From positions 434,001 to 498,000 of the forward strand of contig NZ_BMCU01000001.1 in NCBI RefSeq assembly GCF_014635345.1: DNA of 64,000 nucleotides, read 5' to 3'. Below, piece after piece: positions 38,054 to 41,315 of this stretch. Below the pieces are notes generated by a model that saw nothing but the letters and a program-made list of their open reading frames with translations, did no database searches and was not told the origin of the DNA. The position numbers were made by a program, and so were the translations under genes. Position 1 is the first letter of the stretch. Every line of letters begins with the position of its first letter. The DNA is from Rhodococcoides trifolii. Its GTDB lineage: Bacteria > Actinomycetota > Actinomycetes > Mycobacteriales > Mycobacteriaceae.

Positions 38054-39349
38054 GTGACCAAGCAGCAACGTCCCGTCGCCATTCTCGGCGGTAACCGCAT
38101 CCCGTTCGCACGCTCGGACAAGGCGTACGCGAGTGCGTCCAACCAGGACATGCTGACCGCCGCGGTCGATGGTCTGGTCAGCCGCTTCAATCTGCAGGGC
38201 GAGCGACTCGGACTCGTCGCCGCCGGTGCGGTCCTCAAGCACAGCCGCGATTTCAACCTCACCCGCGAGGTCGTCCTGGGCAGCGCGCTCAGCCCGTACA
38301 CCCCAGCCTTCGACATGGGCCAGGCGTGCGGAACCGGCCTGCAGACGGTCATCGCCGTCGGCGACGGCATCGCGGCCGGACGCATCGACGCCGGTGTCGG
38401 CGGCGGCGTCGACACGACGTCGGACGCGCCCATCGGCGTGAACAACGAACTGCGGGAATTCCTGCTCTCGCTCAACCGCGCGAAGACCACGCCCGATCGC
38501 CTCAAGCTCCTCGCCAACGTGCGGCCGTCGATGCTCGGAATCGAGATCCCGCGCAACGGCGAGCCCCGTACGGGACTGTCGATGGGCGAGCACGCCGCCA
38601 TCACGTCCAAGGAATTCGGCATCCGCCGCGAGGATCAGGACGAGCTGGCCGCGGCCAGCCACAAGAACATGGCGGCTGCGTACGACCGCGGGTTCTTCGA
38701 CGATCTGGTGACGCCCTACCTCGGGCTCACTCGCGACGACAATCTGCGCCCCGGATCGACGGTGGAGAAGCTGTCGACGCTCAAGCCCGTGTTCGGCGCC
38801 AAGCTGGGCGACGCGACGATGACGGCCGGCAACTCGACGCCGCTGACCGACGGCGCGTCCGCCGTTCTGCTGTCGACCGACGAGTGGGCCGATGAGCGCA
38901 AGCTGCCCGTGCTGGCGCACCTCGTCGACTCCGAAACCGCAGCGGTCGACTACGTCCACGGCAACACCGCATTCAAGGACGGACTGCTCATGGCGCCGAC
39001 ATACGCGATCCCGCGTCTGCTGGCCCGCAACGGCCTGAAACTGCAGGACTTCGACTTCTACGAATTCCACGAGGCGTTCGCCTCCGTGGTGCTCGCGACG
39101 CTGCAGGCGTTCGAGAGCGACGAGTACTGCAAGTCGCGTCTCGGCCTCGACAGCGCGCTGGGATCGATCGATCGCAGCAAGCTCAATGTCAACGGAAGCT
39201 CGCTCGCAGCGGGCCACCCATTTGCTGCCACCGGCGGGCGCATCGTCGCATCGCTCGCGAAGATGCTGGCGGAGAAGGGGTCCGGCCGCGGACTCATTTC
39301 CATCTGCGCGGCCGGTGGACAGGGCGTCACGGCGATCATCGAGCGCTAG
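38054..39349 (+). CDS. fadA2: Acetyl-CoA acetyltransferase/thiolase FadA2
   Basis: Cleaves 3-oxoacyl-CoA with CoA, or condenses acetyl-CoA. 431 residues. The nucleophile Cys is in FDMGQACGTGLQTVIA. The His of the active site is in FYEFHEAFASVVL, and the second Cys in SICAAGGQGVTA; NGSSLAAGHPFAATGGRIV is the GHP loop. The GTG start has GGAGTGAG 7 nt upstream. It is divergent from the fabG4-htdX operon, as in Rv0242c/Rv0243. The end is followed after 6 nt by a long imperfect hairpin and then by the retron cassette. Confidence 0.94.
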   Translation: MTKQQRPVAILGGNRIPFARSDKAYASASNQDMLTAAVDGLVSRFNLQGERLGLVAAGAVLKHSRDFNLTREVVLGSALSPYTPAFDMGQACGTGLQTVIAVGDGIAAGRIDAGVGGGVDTTSDAPIGVNNELREFLLSLNRAKTTPDRLKLLANVRPSMLGIEIPRNGEPRTGLSMGEHAAITSKEFGIRREDQDELAAASHKNMAAAYDRGFFDDLVTPYLGLTRDDNLRPGSTVEKLSTLKPVFGAKLGDATMTAGNSTPLTDGASAVLLSTDEWADERKLPVLAHLVDSETAAVDYVHGNTAFKDGLLMAPTYAIPRLLARNGLKLQDFDFYEFHEAFASVVLATLQAFESDEYCKSRLGLDSALGSIDRSKLNVNGSSLAAGHPFAATGGRIVASLAKMLAEKGSGRGLISICAAGGQGVTAIIER

Positions 39350-39355
39350 GACGCA

Positions 39356-39430
39356 CACAGGGTTGGGGCGAACGGTCGGCGGATCCGTCTTGTACGAGGG
39401 GTGCGGATCTGCCGATCGCCCACAACTGTG
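39356..39430 (+). terminator. Long imperfect hairpin after fadA2, likely terminator
   Basis: Segments 39356-39371 and 39416-39430 pair with small bulges. After a short internal loop (39372-39376 opposite A39415), 39377-39387 (CGGCGGATCCG) pairs with 39404-39414 over 11 bp with one G-U. It begins 6 nt after the fadA2 stop, and a run of four T lies at 39444-39447. A role in the retron RNA is less likely because it is upstream of the predicted promoter. Confidence 0.6.
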
Positions 39431-39445
39431 GCTGCTGTGCTCCTT

Positions 39446-39476
39446 TTGTCCGAAAACTCGTTCGTGCCGGTAAGCT
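39446..39476 (+). promoter_or_regulatory. Predicted promoter of the retron RNA
   Basis: TTGTCC (39446-39451) and TAAGCT (39471-39476, TANNNT type) are separated by 19 nt. A start about 7 nt after the -10 falls at 39483, exactly the first base of the a1 strand of the predicted RNA. The long spacer makes this tentative. Confidence 0.5.
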
Positions 39477-39482
39477 TGCCCC

Positions 39483-39651
39483 GTGCAGCGGATGCGGGGC
39501 GAGAGCGGGTCTGCCACCATCGAGGCCCATCTCAGGGGTAACCCCTGGGGCGAACATCTTCATCGGTCACTGCGTCCGAAGCAGGAGTGCACGCTCCGCG
39601 TGCTGCGCTGCTCCGCGGACGGAAGAAGCAGGTCGCCCCGCACCGCTGTGC
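39483..39651 (+). ncRNA. Retron msr-msd non-coding RNA
   Basis: Template and primer RNA for msDNA synthesis by the downstream reverse transcriptase. The 5' strand a1 (39483-39502) pairs with a2 (39633-39651) in a 19-bp helix with one bulged A (39492) and two G-U pairs, the longest being a 10-bp run. Right after a1 is GAGAGC, giving an AGC (39504-39506) whose G39505 is the candidate 2'-branching nucleotide. The msr part has a hairpin CAGGGG-TAA-CCCCTG (39533-39547) extended by GCCC/GGGC (39525-39551). The msd part has a three-tier hairpin: 39573-39578 with 39616-39621, 39581-39584 with 39608-39611, and GCACGC-TCC-GCGTGC at 39589-39603. Order, size and distance to the RT follow known retrons. 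Exact msDNA ends are unknown. Confidence 0.8.
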
Positions 39652-39661
39652 ATCGCGTGCC

Positions 39662-40903
39662 GTGAACCCGTGGTGGAAAGCGTTCGCGCCCAGGATCGCT
39701 CGCATGCTTGTCGACGCCCGATGGACTCGGTCCGGGCTCGAGGAAGCACTGGAGTCCTTCTCTCACCGGCACGACGTGGATGCGCTCGTCACCCGGCTGC
39801 TCGACCTCATGCCGTCGGCGCCGCTGGACGTCGAGAGTGGGCTGTCGCTCCTGCGCGGGATGCCCGTACTGCCGATGTACCTGCCGCCACGGCCGAAGCC
39901 GCCGTCATGGCATTTCGACGTTCCCCGATACTCGAGCAACATCGACCTTGCGAGGTCCCTCGACGTGACCCCGTGGGAACTCGAGTGGTTCGCTGACCTC
40001 GGCGGATGGTTGAGAACCAAACCGTATCCGTTGCAGCACTACCGAACTCGTACGATCGACAAGCGTGACGGCCACCGACTCCTGGAGGTTCCGAAACCTC
40101 GACTGCGTGAGATGCAACGGCGGTTGCTGACCCGGATACTGGACCGGATCCCACCGCACGATGCCGCGCACGGTTTCGTGCGCGGCCGCAGCGCGGTGAC
40201 GTTCGCGCGGCCGCACGAGTACGCCGACGTCGTGATCCGGATGGATCTTGCCGACTTCTTCACCTCGATCCGCCGACCTCGAGTGGCCGCGATCTTCGCG
40301 TCGGCCGGGTATCCGCGAACCGTGGCCCGTACCTTGGCCGGAATCTGTACCACCGAAACTCCGGCGGAGCGGTTGTCCGGATTGCCTCACGATCGGGCGG
40401 TGGCGCTGCGTGCGCCGCACCTGCCGCAGGGCGCTCCCACCTCACCTGCCCTCGCCAATCTGGTTGCGCGCAGGCTCGATCGGAGACTCGCAGGGTTCGC
40501 GCGTAAGAACGGGCTGACGTACACCCGATATGCGGACGATCTCGCGTTCTCCGGTTCGGCGGACGTACGGGTGGACAAGCTGATCACTGTCGTGACGACA
40601 ATCGTTCGGGCGGAGGGCTTTTCGGTCAACGTCCGAAAGACGCGGATCCGACGCGCACATCGCCGACAGGTCCTGGCCGGACTGGTGGTGAACGAGTCCG
40701 CCGCCGTACCGAGAGCACGCTACGACGCTCTGCGCGCGTTGCTGCACAACTGCTCGATCACGGGTGCATCCGAGCAGAACCGCGACGGACTCCCGGACTT
40801 TCGCAGTCACGTCTACGGGGTGATTGCGTGGATCGGGGAATCGAACGAGGTGCGACGAGCTGTTCTGCACGATCTCGCGGCTCGGGTCGACTGGGACTCG
40901 TGA
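39662..40903 (+). CDS. Retron-type reverse transcriptase
   Basis: Synthesises msDNA from the upstream RNA. From GTG 39662 the product has 413 residues. About 130 N-terminal residues (WWKAFAPRIARMLVDARW) precede the RT core. RT motifs are AHGFVRGRSAVTFARPH (169-185), VIRMDLADFFTSI (about 192-204), LPQGAPTSPALANL (about 254-267) and the catalytic YADD (290-293). After it, QVLAGLVVN (336-344) stands where retrons carry a VTG motif. The long N-terminus and the VRGRS/TFAxPH form recall myxobacterial retrons such as Mx162 (from memory). The frame is open back to GTG 39587, but that part overlaps the msd and a2, so a later start is preferred; ATG 39704 with AGGA upstream is another option. No maturase, HNH or fused nuclease domain is visible. 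Confidence 0.9.
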   Translation: MNPWWKAFAPRIARMLVDARWTRSGLEEALESFSHRHDVDALVTRLLDLMPSAPLDVESGLSLLRGMPVLPMYLPPRPKPPSWHFDVPRYSSNIDLARSLDVTPWELEWFADLGGWLRTKPYPLQHYRTRTIDKRDGHRLLEVPKPRLREMQRRLLTRILDRIPPHDAAHGFVRGRSAVTFARPHEYADVVIRMDLADFFTSIRRPRVAAIFASAGYPRTVARTLAGICTTETPAERLSGLPHDRAVALRAPHLPQGAPTSPALANLVARRLDRRLAGFARKNGLTYTRYADDLAFSGSADVRVDKLITVVTTIVRAEGFSVNVRKTRIRRAHRRQVLAGLVVNESAAVPRARYDALRALLHNCSITGASEQNRDGLPDFRSHVYGVIAWIGESNEVRRAVLHDLAARVDWDS

Positions 40904-41125
40904 GAAATCCTTTTCGCTCGCGGTGATCGCATCTCTTCACGTGCGACTTCGAGTCGTGCATCGTCGAACCCATGATCGGCGTCGACCACCGGAGATCCAC
41001 CCGCCAATCGTGTAATGGACCGGCGATCGGACGATTTCCATGCCGCAGAATGGTCACGAATCTGCCTTCCGACCTGCAATCAGGCCATTTCCGAACGAGT
41101 CGCGGAGCACCTCGACGTGCCGCGG

Positions 41126-41143
41126 TTCATTCGATCGAATGAA
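41126..41143. repeat. 18-bp perfect palindrome TTCATTCGATCGAATGAA
   Basis: Exactly self-complementary, in the gap downstream of the retron. It shares TTCGATCGAATGAA with the site near 19844-19857. It may be an operator for the VanW gene or an unrelated recombination site. Confidence 0.7.
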
Positions 41144-41203
41144 TAGCGCCATTCAGCGACATTCGACTTGTAACAGTTCCCAAAGGCAGGCGATACTTCC
41201 AGT

Positions 41204-41254
41204 GGCTCCGCACTTCTGCCTGACCCCCGACCCGGTAGAGGTGCGGAGCCTTTT
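41204..41254 (+). terminator. Hairpin with T-tract upstream of the VanW gene
   Basis: GGCTCCGCAC (41204-41213) pairs with GTGCGGAGCC (41241-41250), followed by TTTT. It lies 62 nt before the VanW ATG, so it could be an attenuator rather than a retron terminator. AGGCAG (41184-41189) and CTGCCT (41216-41221) form a second pairing that would cross this stem. Confidence 0.65.
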
Positions 41255-41315
41255 CACACCTCGCGGCCGAACCGGTCGAACGTCGGGTCCTCGGTCCAGC
41301 AGATACTCTGGATGC

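Follow-up and report, generated by a model that had tools for sequence, protein, structure and literature searches.

A retron-like msr-msd RNA and reverse transcriptase with no recognisable adjoining effector in Rhodococcoides trifolii and related actinomycetes

RESULTS AND DISCUSSION

Organization of the locus

In this study, we describe a retron-like locus in a window of 64,000 nt of the Rhodococcoides trifolii genome (GCF_014635345.1, NZ_BMCU01000001.1, positions 434,001 to 498,000, forward strand), to which all coordinates below refer. A thiolase gene, which we take to be fadA2, is followed on the plus strand by a 169-nt RNA (39483-39651), a reverse transcriptase (RT) gene, a match to the F6 sRNA and a gene for a VanW-domain protein. 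The features are as follows.

38054-39349, plus strand: thiolase gene, fadA2-like (Pfam Thiolase_N and _C)
39471-39476, plus strand: TAAGCT, a -10-like box of the predicted retron promoter (read from the sequence; putative function)
39483-39502, plus strand: a1 strand of the closing helix (fold, duplex rarity, covariation)
39505, plus strand: candidate branch guanosine within GAGC 39503-39506 (invariant in alignment; 2'-5' priming presumed from retron biology)
39507-39528, plus strand: msr hairpin 1 (fold, covariation)
39530-39550, plus strand: msr hairpin 2, TCTCAGGGGTAACCCCTGGGG (fold, covariation; same hairpin in the proteobacterial alignment)
39565-39632, plus strand: msd, presumed msDNA template, with approximate ends
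39589-39603, plus strand: msd apical hairpin, GCACGCTCCGCGTGC (pattern found upstream of relatives' RTs)
39633-39651, plus strand: a2 strand of the closing helix (fold, duplex rarity, covariation)
39662-40903, plus strand: retron RT, 413 aa (PADLOC RT_other/RT_outgroup, Pfam RVT_1, PDB Ec86 RT)
40202-40216, plus strand: region X, FARPH, the retron NAxxH with its N replaced
40529-40540, plus strand: YADD catalytic motif (sequence; alignments of relatives)
40673-40693, plus strand: region Y, LAGLVVN, a variant of the retron VTG
41199-41255, plus strand: F6 sRNA (Rfam RF01791, 50.4 bits), between the fadA2-like and VanW genes

The composition of the RT region is near that of its surroundings. Pfam searches of nine neighbours in the window returned MaoC, short-chain reductase, thiolase, VanW, flavin reductase, sugar-binding regulator, MIP channel, FGGY kinase and glycoside hydrolase 3 domains.

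A reverse transcriptase of the retron type

The first-pass annotation had described a YADD RT of the retron type at this position, and the profile searches bear it out. In PADLOC, the protein matched RT_other (1.1e-173) and RT_outgroup (2.7e-163) above all typed retron RTs, the next being RT_XIII (2.1e-96). The two profiles (RT_outgroup / RT_other, PDLC03740 and PDLC02949) cover residues 11-411 and 6-412, a near full-length match that includes the N-terminal part; they are protein profiles only and carry no description of an RNA or a function. Pfam found RVT_1 (2.8e-20) and no second domain in the RT. The nearest solved chains are retron RTs, with the Ec86 RT as the top PDB match (1.1e-34, residues 126-370), and the NCBIfam retron models match under their cut-offs (retron_St85_RT, 185.4 of 235 bits).

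YADD is present at all 110 loci compared, where the open frames had been chosen by the pattern Y[AVCM]DD. Region X reads FAxPH at 38 and NAxxH at five of the 53 loci (out of 110) at which the search expression matched, and region Y reads VTG at 36, LAG at 31, LTG at 23 and VAG at two of the 92 matched by its own expression. In an alignment of 37 RTs (A3), the region X histidine and the region Y glycine are invariant and the region X alanine is at least 90% conserved. Among 16 validated retron RTs, 14 have NAxxH, the exceptions being Mx65 and Ec48, and 14 have VTG (Simon 2019, PMC6868368); in a set of 102 retron RTs, 26% have I or L as the first residue of region Y (Toro 2014). The RTs of relatives are under purifying selection: for 21 loci, among which the window's RT is not counted, the 105 pairs with dS<1.2 have a median dN/dS of 0.10.

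An in-frame GTG also occurs at 39587, inside the msd, and we consider the GTG at 39662 the likelier start. Some relatives' RTs are shorter at the N-terminus (320-353 aa), as judged from mechanically chosen starts that leave the spread of the extension uncertain.

The msr-msd RNA

Immediately upstream of the RT gene lies the RNA that the first-pass annotation had proposed from base pairing read by eye, namely a 19-bp imperfect helix joining 39483-39502 to 39633-39651 with msr and msd hairpins between its strands. These coordinates proved right, as did the distance of 10 nt between the end of a2 and the RT start, and the helix contains a single bulged A at 39492. The minimum free energy of the RNA is -91.9 kcal/mol, against -74.0 +/- 4.3 in 200 dinucleotide shuffles (z -4.2), none of which folded as well. 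The a1/a2 duplex alone reaches -37.8 kcal/mol, which was equalled at none of 1595 control positions across this GC-rich 64 kb, each represented by the best of 11 spacings of 140-160 nt; the best of them gave -35.3. The folded msr-msd RNA next to an RT, as first observed, is thus confirmed. Searches with the Rfam retron RNA families gave no match at the gathering threshold over the window and none at E<=10 over 39300-41300.

The msd hairpin spans 39573-39621 and is closed by a stem formed by 39573-39578 and 39616-39621, inside which the inner stems covary. When 39565-39632 was folded as single-stranded DNA, it was weakly better than its shuffles, with a z of -1.5 and 15 of the 200 shuffles folding equally well. 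The pattern of the apical hairpin was found upstream of the RT at each of the 36 loci L001-L036 and at 40 of 110 loci overall. The retron copy is the only exact match in its own genome, and the idea that the hairpin serves as a decoy for genomic sites was rejected, two further sites having one mismatch and a reversed-pattern control giving six. The GGGG..ACCCC motif of the second msr hairpin, counted by eye and with chance left uncontrolled, occurs upstream of the RT at 91 of 110 loci.

With regard to transcription, a TANNNT promoter that would start it at the first base of a1 had been put forward. TAAGCT at 39471-39476 is at a fitting distance for a predicted start near 39483. The TANNNT form itself did not generalize: at roughly this spacing from a1, 32 of 34 relatives carry CANNNT by our count by eye, one locus (L036) has TANNNT, and another (L049) has neither.

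Covariation of the RNA among relatives

The upstream regions of the window and of 34 relatives from Rhodococcus and others of the genus, Nocardia, Antrihabitans and Saccharothrix were aligned (alignment A2). RNAalifold predicted 41 pairs in this alignment, 20 of them with compensatory double changes, which are distributed over all six helices (5, 3, 4, 3, 4 and 1 pairs). Overall, 97.8% of 1435 cells are paired, against 91.8 +/- 0.4 in shuffles, and the covariation score is 0.224 against 0.115; on each of five measures, all 500 shuffles fell below the observed value. These shuffles ignore relatedness. When the partner strand was slid by 1-3 columns, a control that keeps relatedness and that an alignment-derived structure nevertheless tends to beat, pairing fell to 34.7-44.7%. 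Loss of a1/a2 pairing among homologues had been named as the observation that would count against a retron, and the pairing is kept: over the 35 regions, pairing is 96.3% in one a1/a2 helix and 98.1% in the other, and eight of their 16 pairs show compensatory changes. The rows of A2 had been cut out with the msd-hairpin pattern, and the conservation of the msd hairpin there therefore comes partly from selection.

A branch candidate directly after a1 was also part of the original proposal; the motif reads GAGC (39503-39506), and G39505 is invariant in all 35 rows, while L028 and L030 have T in place of the preceding A, and the following C is usually T. Three relatives (L016, L020 and L022) have an insertion of about 33 nt between both msr hairpins, indicating that the msr tolerates extra sequence there.

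The architecture extends beyond the actinomycetes. Thirteen proteobacterial RNAs, which were found with a covariance model of the RNA (R1; 10 of them with at most moderate scores) and then folded independently of that model, gave the same helix order, with 43 pairs, 22 of which show double changes, and AAGC adjoins a1 in 11 of the 13 rows as judged by eye.

Linkage of the RNA to the RT

A covariance search with homologous upstream regions, as recommended in the first-pass annotation, linked the RNA to the RT. In the genus, the RT was found at E<=1e-20 in 32 of 37 genomes, that of R. trifolii included, and R1, whose E-values are rough owing to a short calibration, detected the RNA at E<=0.01 in the same 32 and in none of the five genomes without the RT. 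In a family sample of 251 genomes, evenly drawn from a larger group and containing members of the genus, the RT matched at E<=1e-80 in 80 genomes, 17 of them from the same genus, and the RNA at E<=0.01 in 81, among which were all 80 with the RT. Comparison of the tables by eye showed that both elements share contig and strand in each of the 80, the RNA preceding the RT match by no more than 430 nt and in one genome overlapping it by 16 nt; in the 81st genome (G046), RT remnants adjoin the RNA. Additional weak R1 matches were seen in G172 (partial, on another contig) and G022 (same place, opposite strand). The RT matched once each in 48 of 200 genomes of an order sample that overlaps the family sample (1e-80), and RT_outgroup at 1e-80 matched none of 14 named control genomes.

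R1 was also applied to 73 genome-contig loci that had not been used in building it. At E<=0.01 it detected the RNA in 40 of them, on the upstream side of the RT at a distance of up to about 0.9 kb and in one case overlapping the start of the RT match, and it gave no other match at this threshold in 779,376 bases. Microbacteriaceae, Pseudonocardiaceae and Burkholderia are represented among these 40, as are metagenome bins labelled Acidobacteria, Planctomycetes and Labilithrix. The other 33 gave no match at E<=0.01, and in 12 of these a weaker signal (E 0.012-0.51) occurs where the RNA would be expected. The order expected of a retron, that is a1, branch G, msr, msd, a2 and RT, thus holds by covariation and by RT linkage.

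Chromosomal sites, decay and inheritance

The retron is present in a single copy in its own genome, where it sits between fadA2 and F6. In G028, G036 and G030, and by eye in G005, fadA2, a downstream hairpin and F6 lie close together without a retron. The fadA2 locus, given at the outset as the retron's location, is correct for the window and is one of several sites in the genus: sorted by common upstream neighbours, the 32 genus loci form sets of 21, 6 (the set that contains the window), 4 and 1, which rules out a single conserved chromosomal site.

Several copies are damaged. G032 has a partial RT about 10.5 kb away from a weaker RNA match (70.9 bits), the RT of G006 is split into two pieces that lie in different frames, the RT matches of G029 and G033 have one in-frame TGA each, and RT matches are partial in G083, G084, G145, G214 and G248 of the family sample. 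Retrons in decay, with the RNA still recognisable and the RT partial or in pieces, were seen at L203 (G032), L204 (G046) and L205 (G214), and by eye the msd half of L203 looks replaced. In Rhodococcus rhodnii (L049) the RT frame has 317 aa, the tblastn match extends further and the msr-msd is recognisable, which suggests a broken copy. Given the broken or partial RTs in some genomes and the absence from five of 37 genus genomes, the retron is dispensable.

The window's RT, which is flagged as a long branch, groups in the RT tree with other fadA2-site RTs (100/99). By its fadA2, the host is closer to species that carry the retron elsewhere (up to 92%) than to the other fadA2-site species (86-87%), and in the fadA2 tree, which has a midpoint root only, it stands beside the former; on these grounds, there may have been lateral exchange at the fadA2 site. 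The RT and fadA2 trees agree when unrooted, which fits our view that descent in the actinomycete lineage was probably mostly vertical, the retron having moved to another chromosomal site at least once. Vertical inheritance has likewise been proposed for the myxobacterial Mx162 and Sa163 (Simon 2019, PMC6868368). Carriage by plasmids or phages was rejected: among 45 plasmid records that match the RT at 1e-20, one (Tsukamurella, 47.3%) covers at least 80% of it, none of nine matching phage records exceeds 80%, and the RNA was not found in plasmids.

Search for an effector

Genes lying up to 3.5 kb from the RT were screened at 112 loci (80 other loci, 31 genus loci and the window), and no recurring effector gene was seen. 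The screen was heuristic, since it relied on a rough GC3-based gene picker that yields some wrong frames and could miss a small or fast-changing partner. The 14 largest clusters of neighbours, inspected by one example each, look generic (e.g., ABC-transporter ATPases), and PADLOC gave no match at 1e-10 to the nine window neighbours. Neither a linked effector gene nor a fused effector domain was encountered by Pfam on the RT, by the neighbour screen or by PADLOC on the neighbours.

Interpretation

These findings support reading the RNA and the RT as a retron. We consider it highly probable (about 0.86) that this is a working retron, in which an RNA of about 169 nt serves the RT in making branched msDNA and which has no recognisable adjoining effector. 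We infer transcription, branch priming, the msDNA and its ends, and the function from retron biology. Transcription would proceed from a promoter ending near 39476, with a start at about 39483, and the transcript would fold so that a1 pairs with a2 and G39505 is presented. The RT, made from the same unit, would bind the msr hairpins, prime at the 2'-OH of G39505 and copy the msd from about 39632, the a2-side end of the template, to about 39565, giving a hairpin msDNA that is branched and joined to the RNA. The RT-msDNA complex would then most likely sense a phage or DNA-metabolism signal, either alone or with a distant partner.

Close parallels are retrons of another phylum, compared here by their described traits. 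The myxobacterial Mx65, Mx162, Sa163 and Ne144 have an N-terminally extended RT as found here, and the validated Mx65 further resembles the present candidate in its GAGC branch motif and its replaced region X N, and would be similar to it in size if our msd ends are right (PMC6868368). A working effector-less retron comparable to the myxobacterial ones is the most likely reading. It has been noted that some retrons apparently lack linked effectors and were perhaps recruited for other functions (PMC8867640).

Retrons of known function use effectors (PMC12548924), and it is quite possible, while falling short of even odds, that the locus belongs to an anti-phage retron of the tripartite type, with an effector that is encoded in trans or that escaped the screen through partners differing between lineages. 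The reach of the neighbour screen, with its 3.5-kb limit, rough picker and single examples of the 14 largest clusters, leaves room for such a partner; against it stand the generic look of those clusters in 112 loci, the absence of PADLOC matches among the window neighbours, and the fact that the RT-RNA pair stands among differing neighbours at different sites. Retron-Eco1, whose Ec86 RT is the top PDB sequence match, has an effector partner, in contrast to the present locus where none was seen. We regard as tentative, and on the whole rather unlikely, a more far-reaching proposal: that the retron is near-core and single-copy, lacks any effector, is kept by purifying selection in actinomycetes and has an RNA architecture common to proteobacterial, acidobacterial and planctomycete relatives. 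The working product would then be the msDNA-RT particle itself, together with the extended N-terminus of the RT or the near-invariant msd hairpin, and it would act in physiology or stand-alone defence rather than as a toxin-antitoxin system.

The departures from canonical motifs, FARPH and LAG, together with a strong RNA structure directly upstream of a start codon that would also fit translational control, could be taken to mean that msDNA is no longer made, the RT having been domesticated for another task and the RNA being a 5' regulatory structure in place of a template. We find this improbable in view of the a1-branch-msr-msd-a2 order kept in actinomycetes and proteobacteria, the covariation in every A2 helix and the YADD at all 110 loci (in frames picked by the pattern Y[AVCM]DD). 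Moreover, in the family sample the RNA without a full RT occurs solely beside partial or decayed RTs, and the substituted region X N and the GAGC branch motif also occur in Mx65, a validated retron (PMC6868368). Far less probable still is a fragment of a group II intron or of a defence RT (DRT) beside a chance hairpin: NCBIfam does give weak matches to the group II RT and to Drt2, Drt3a and Drt4, but these are far under their cut-offs (59.1 of 300 bits and 35.4 of 390), and the reading is contradicted by the much higher scores of the PADLOC retron profiles, the rarity of the a1/a2 helix (0 of 1595) and the covariation of the RNA.

Relation to earlier reports and significance

According to the first-pass annotation, no retron is known to have been described from this fadA2 locus in Rhodococcus. 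Our search covered titles and abstracts and likewise found no description of an msr-msd from Rhodococcus; one may nevertheless exist. The novelty has nevertheless to be narrowed, given that the RT class is already in PADLOC and actinobacterial retrons have been mentioned as putative, with a Rhodococcus ruber genome as the citation (Simon 2019, PMC6868368). In that genome paper a retron-type RT is named in a figure legend beside gentisate-pathway genes, with no msr-msd there, and the main text contains no occurrence of 'msDNA'. The new elements appear to be the anatomy of the msr-msd in this lineage, with its covariation and close RT linkage, and the presence of the retron in most genus genomes searched with an architecture common to other phyla.

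Retrons of known function act via an effector, and the role of those without one is the question on which this locus bears. It supplies a covarying RNA model, exact coordinates and, in a group of actinomycetes that can be cultured, species with natural losses as well as empty sites, which makes msDNA production and phenotype directly testable. A GC-rich actinobacterial RT-RNA pair may also help in making single-stranded DNA in such hosts.

Other features of the intergenic regions

A hairpin at 39373-39418 with a GAGGGGT loop lies immediately 3' of fadA2, and a similar one follows fadA2 in seven other species compared. It was rejected as a part of the retron and left out of it because these seven species have no retron there in the stretch compared; it is probably a fadA2 terminator or a 3' regulatory element. 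The F6 sRNA, which in the window is parted from fadA2 by the retron, was detected at six of ten relatives' loci scanned. Upstream of F6 lies a perfect palindrome of 18 bp, TTCATTCGATCGAATGAA, at 41126-41143, which is possibly an operator, and TTCATTCAAGTGAATGAA precedes F6 in L175 and L197.
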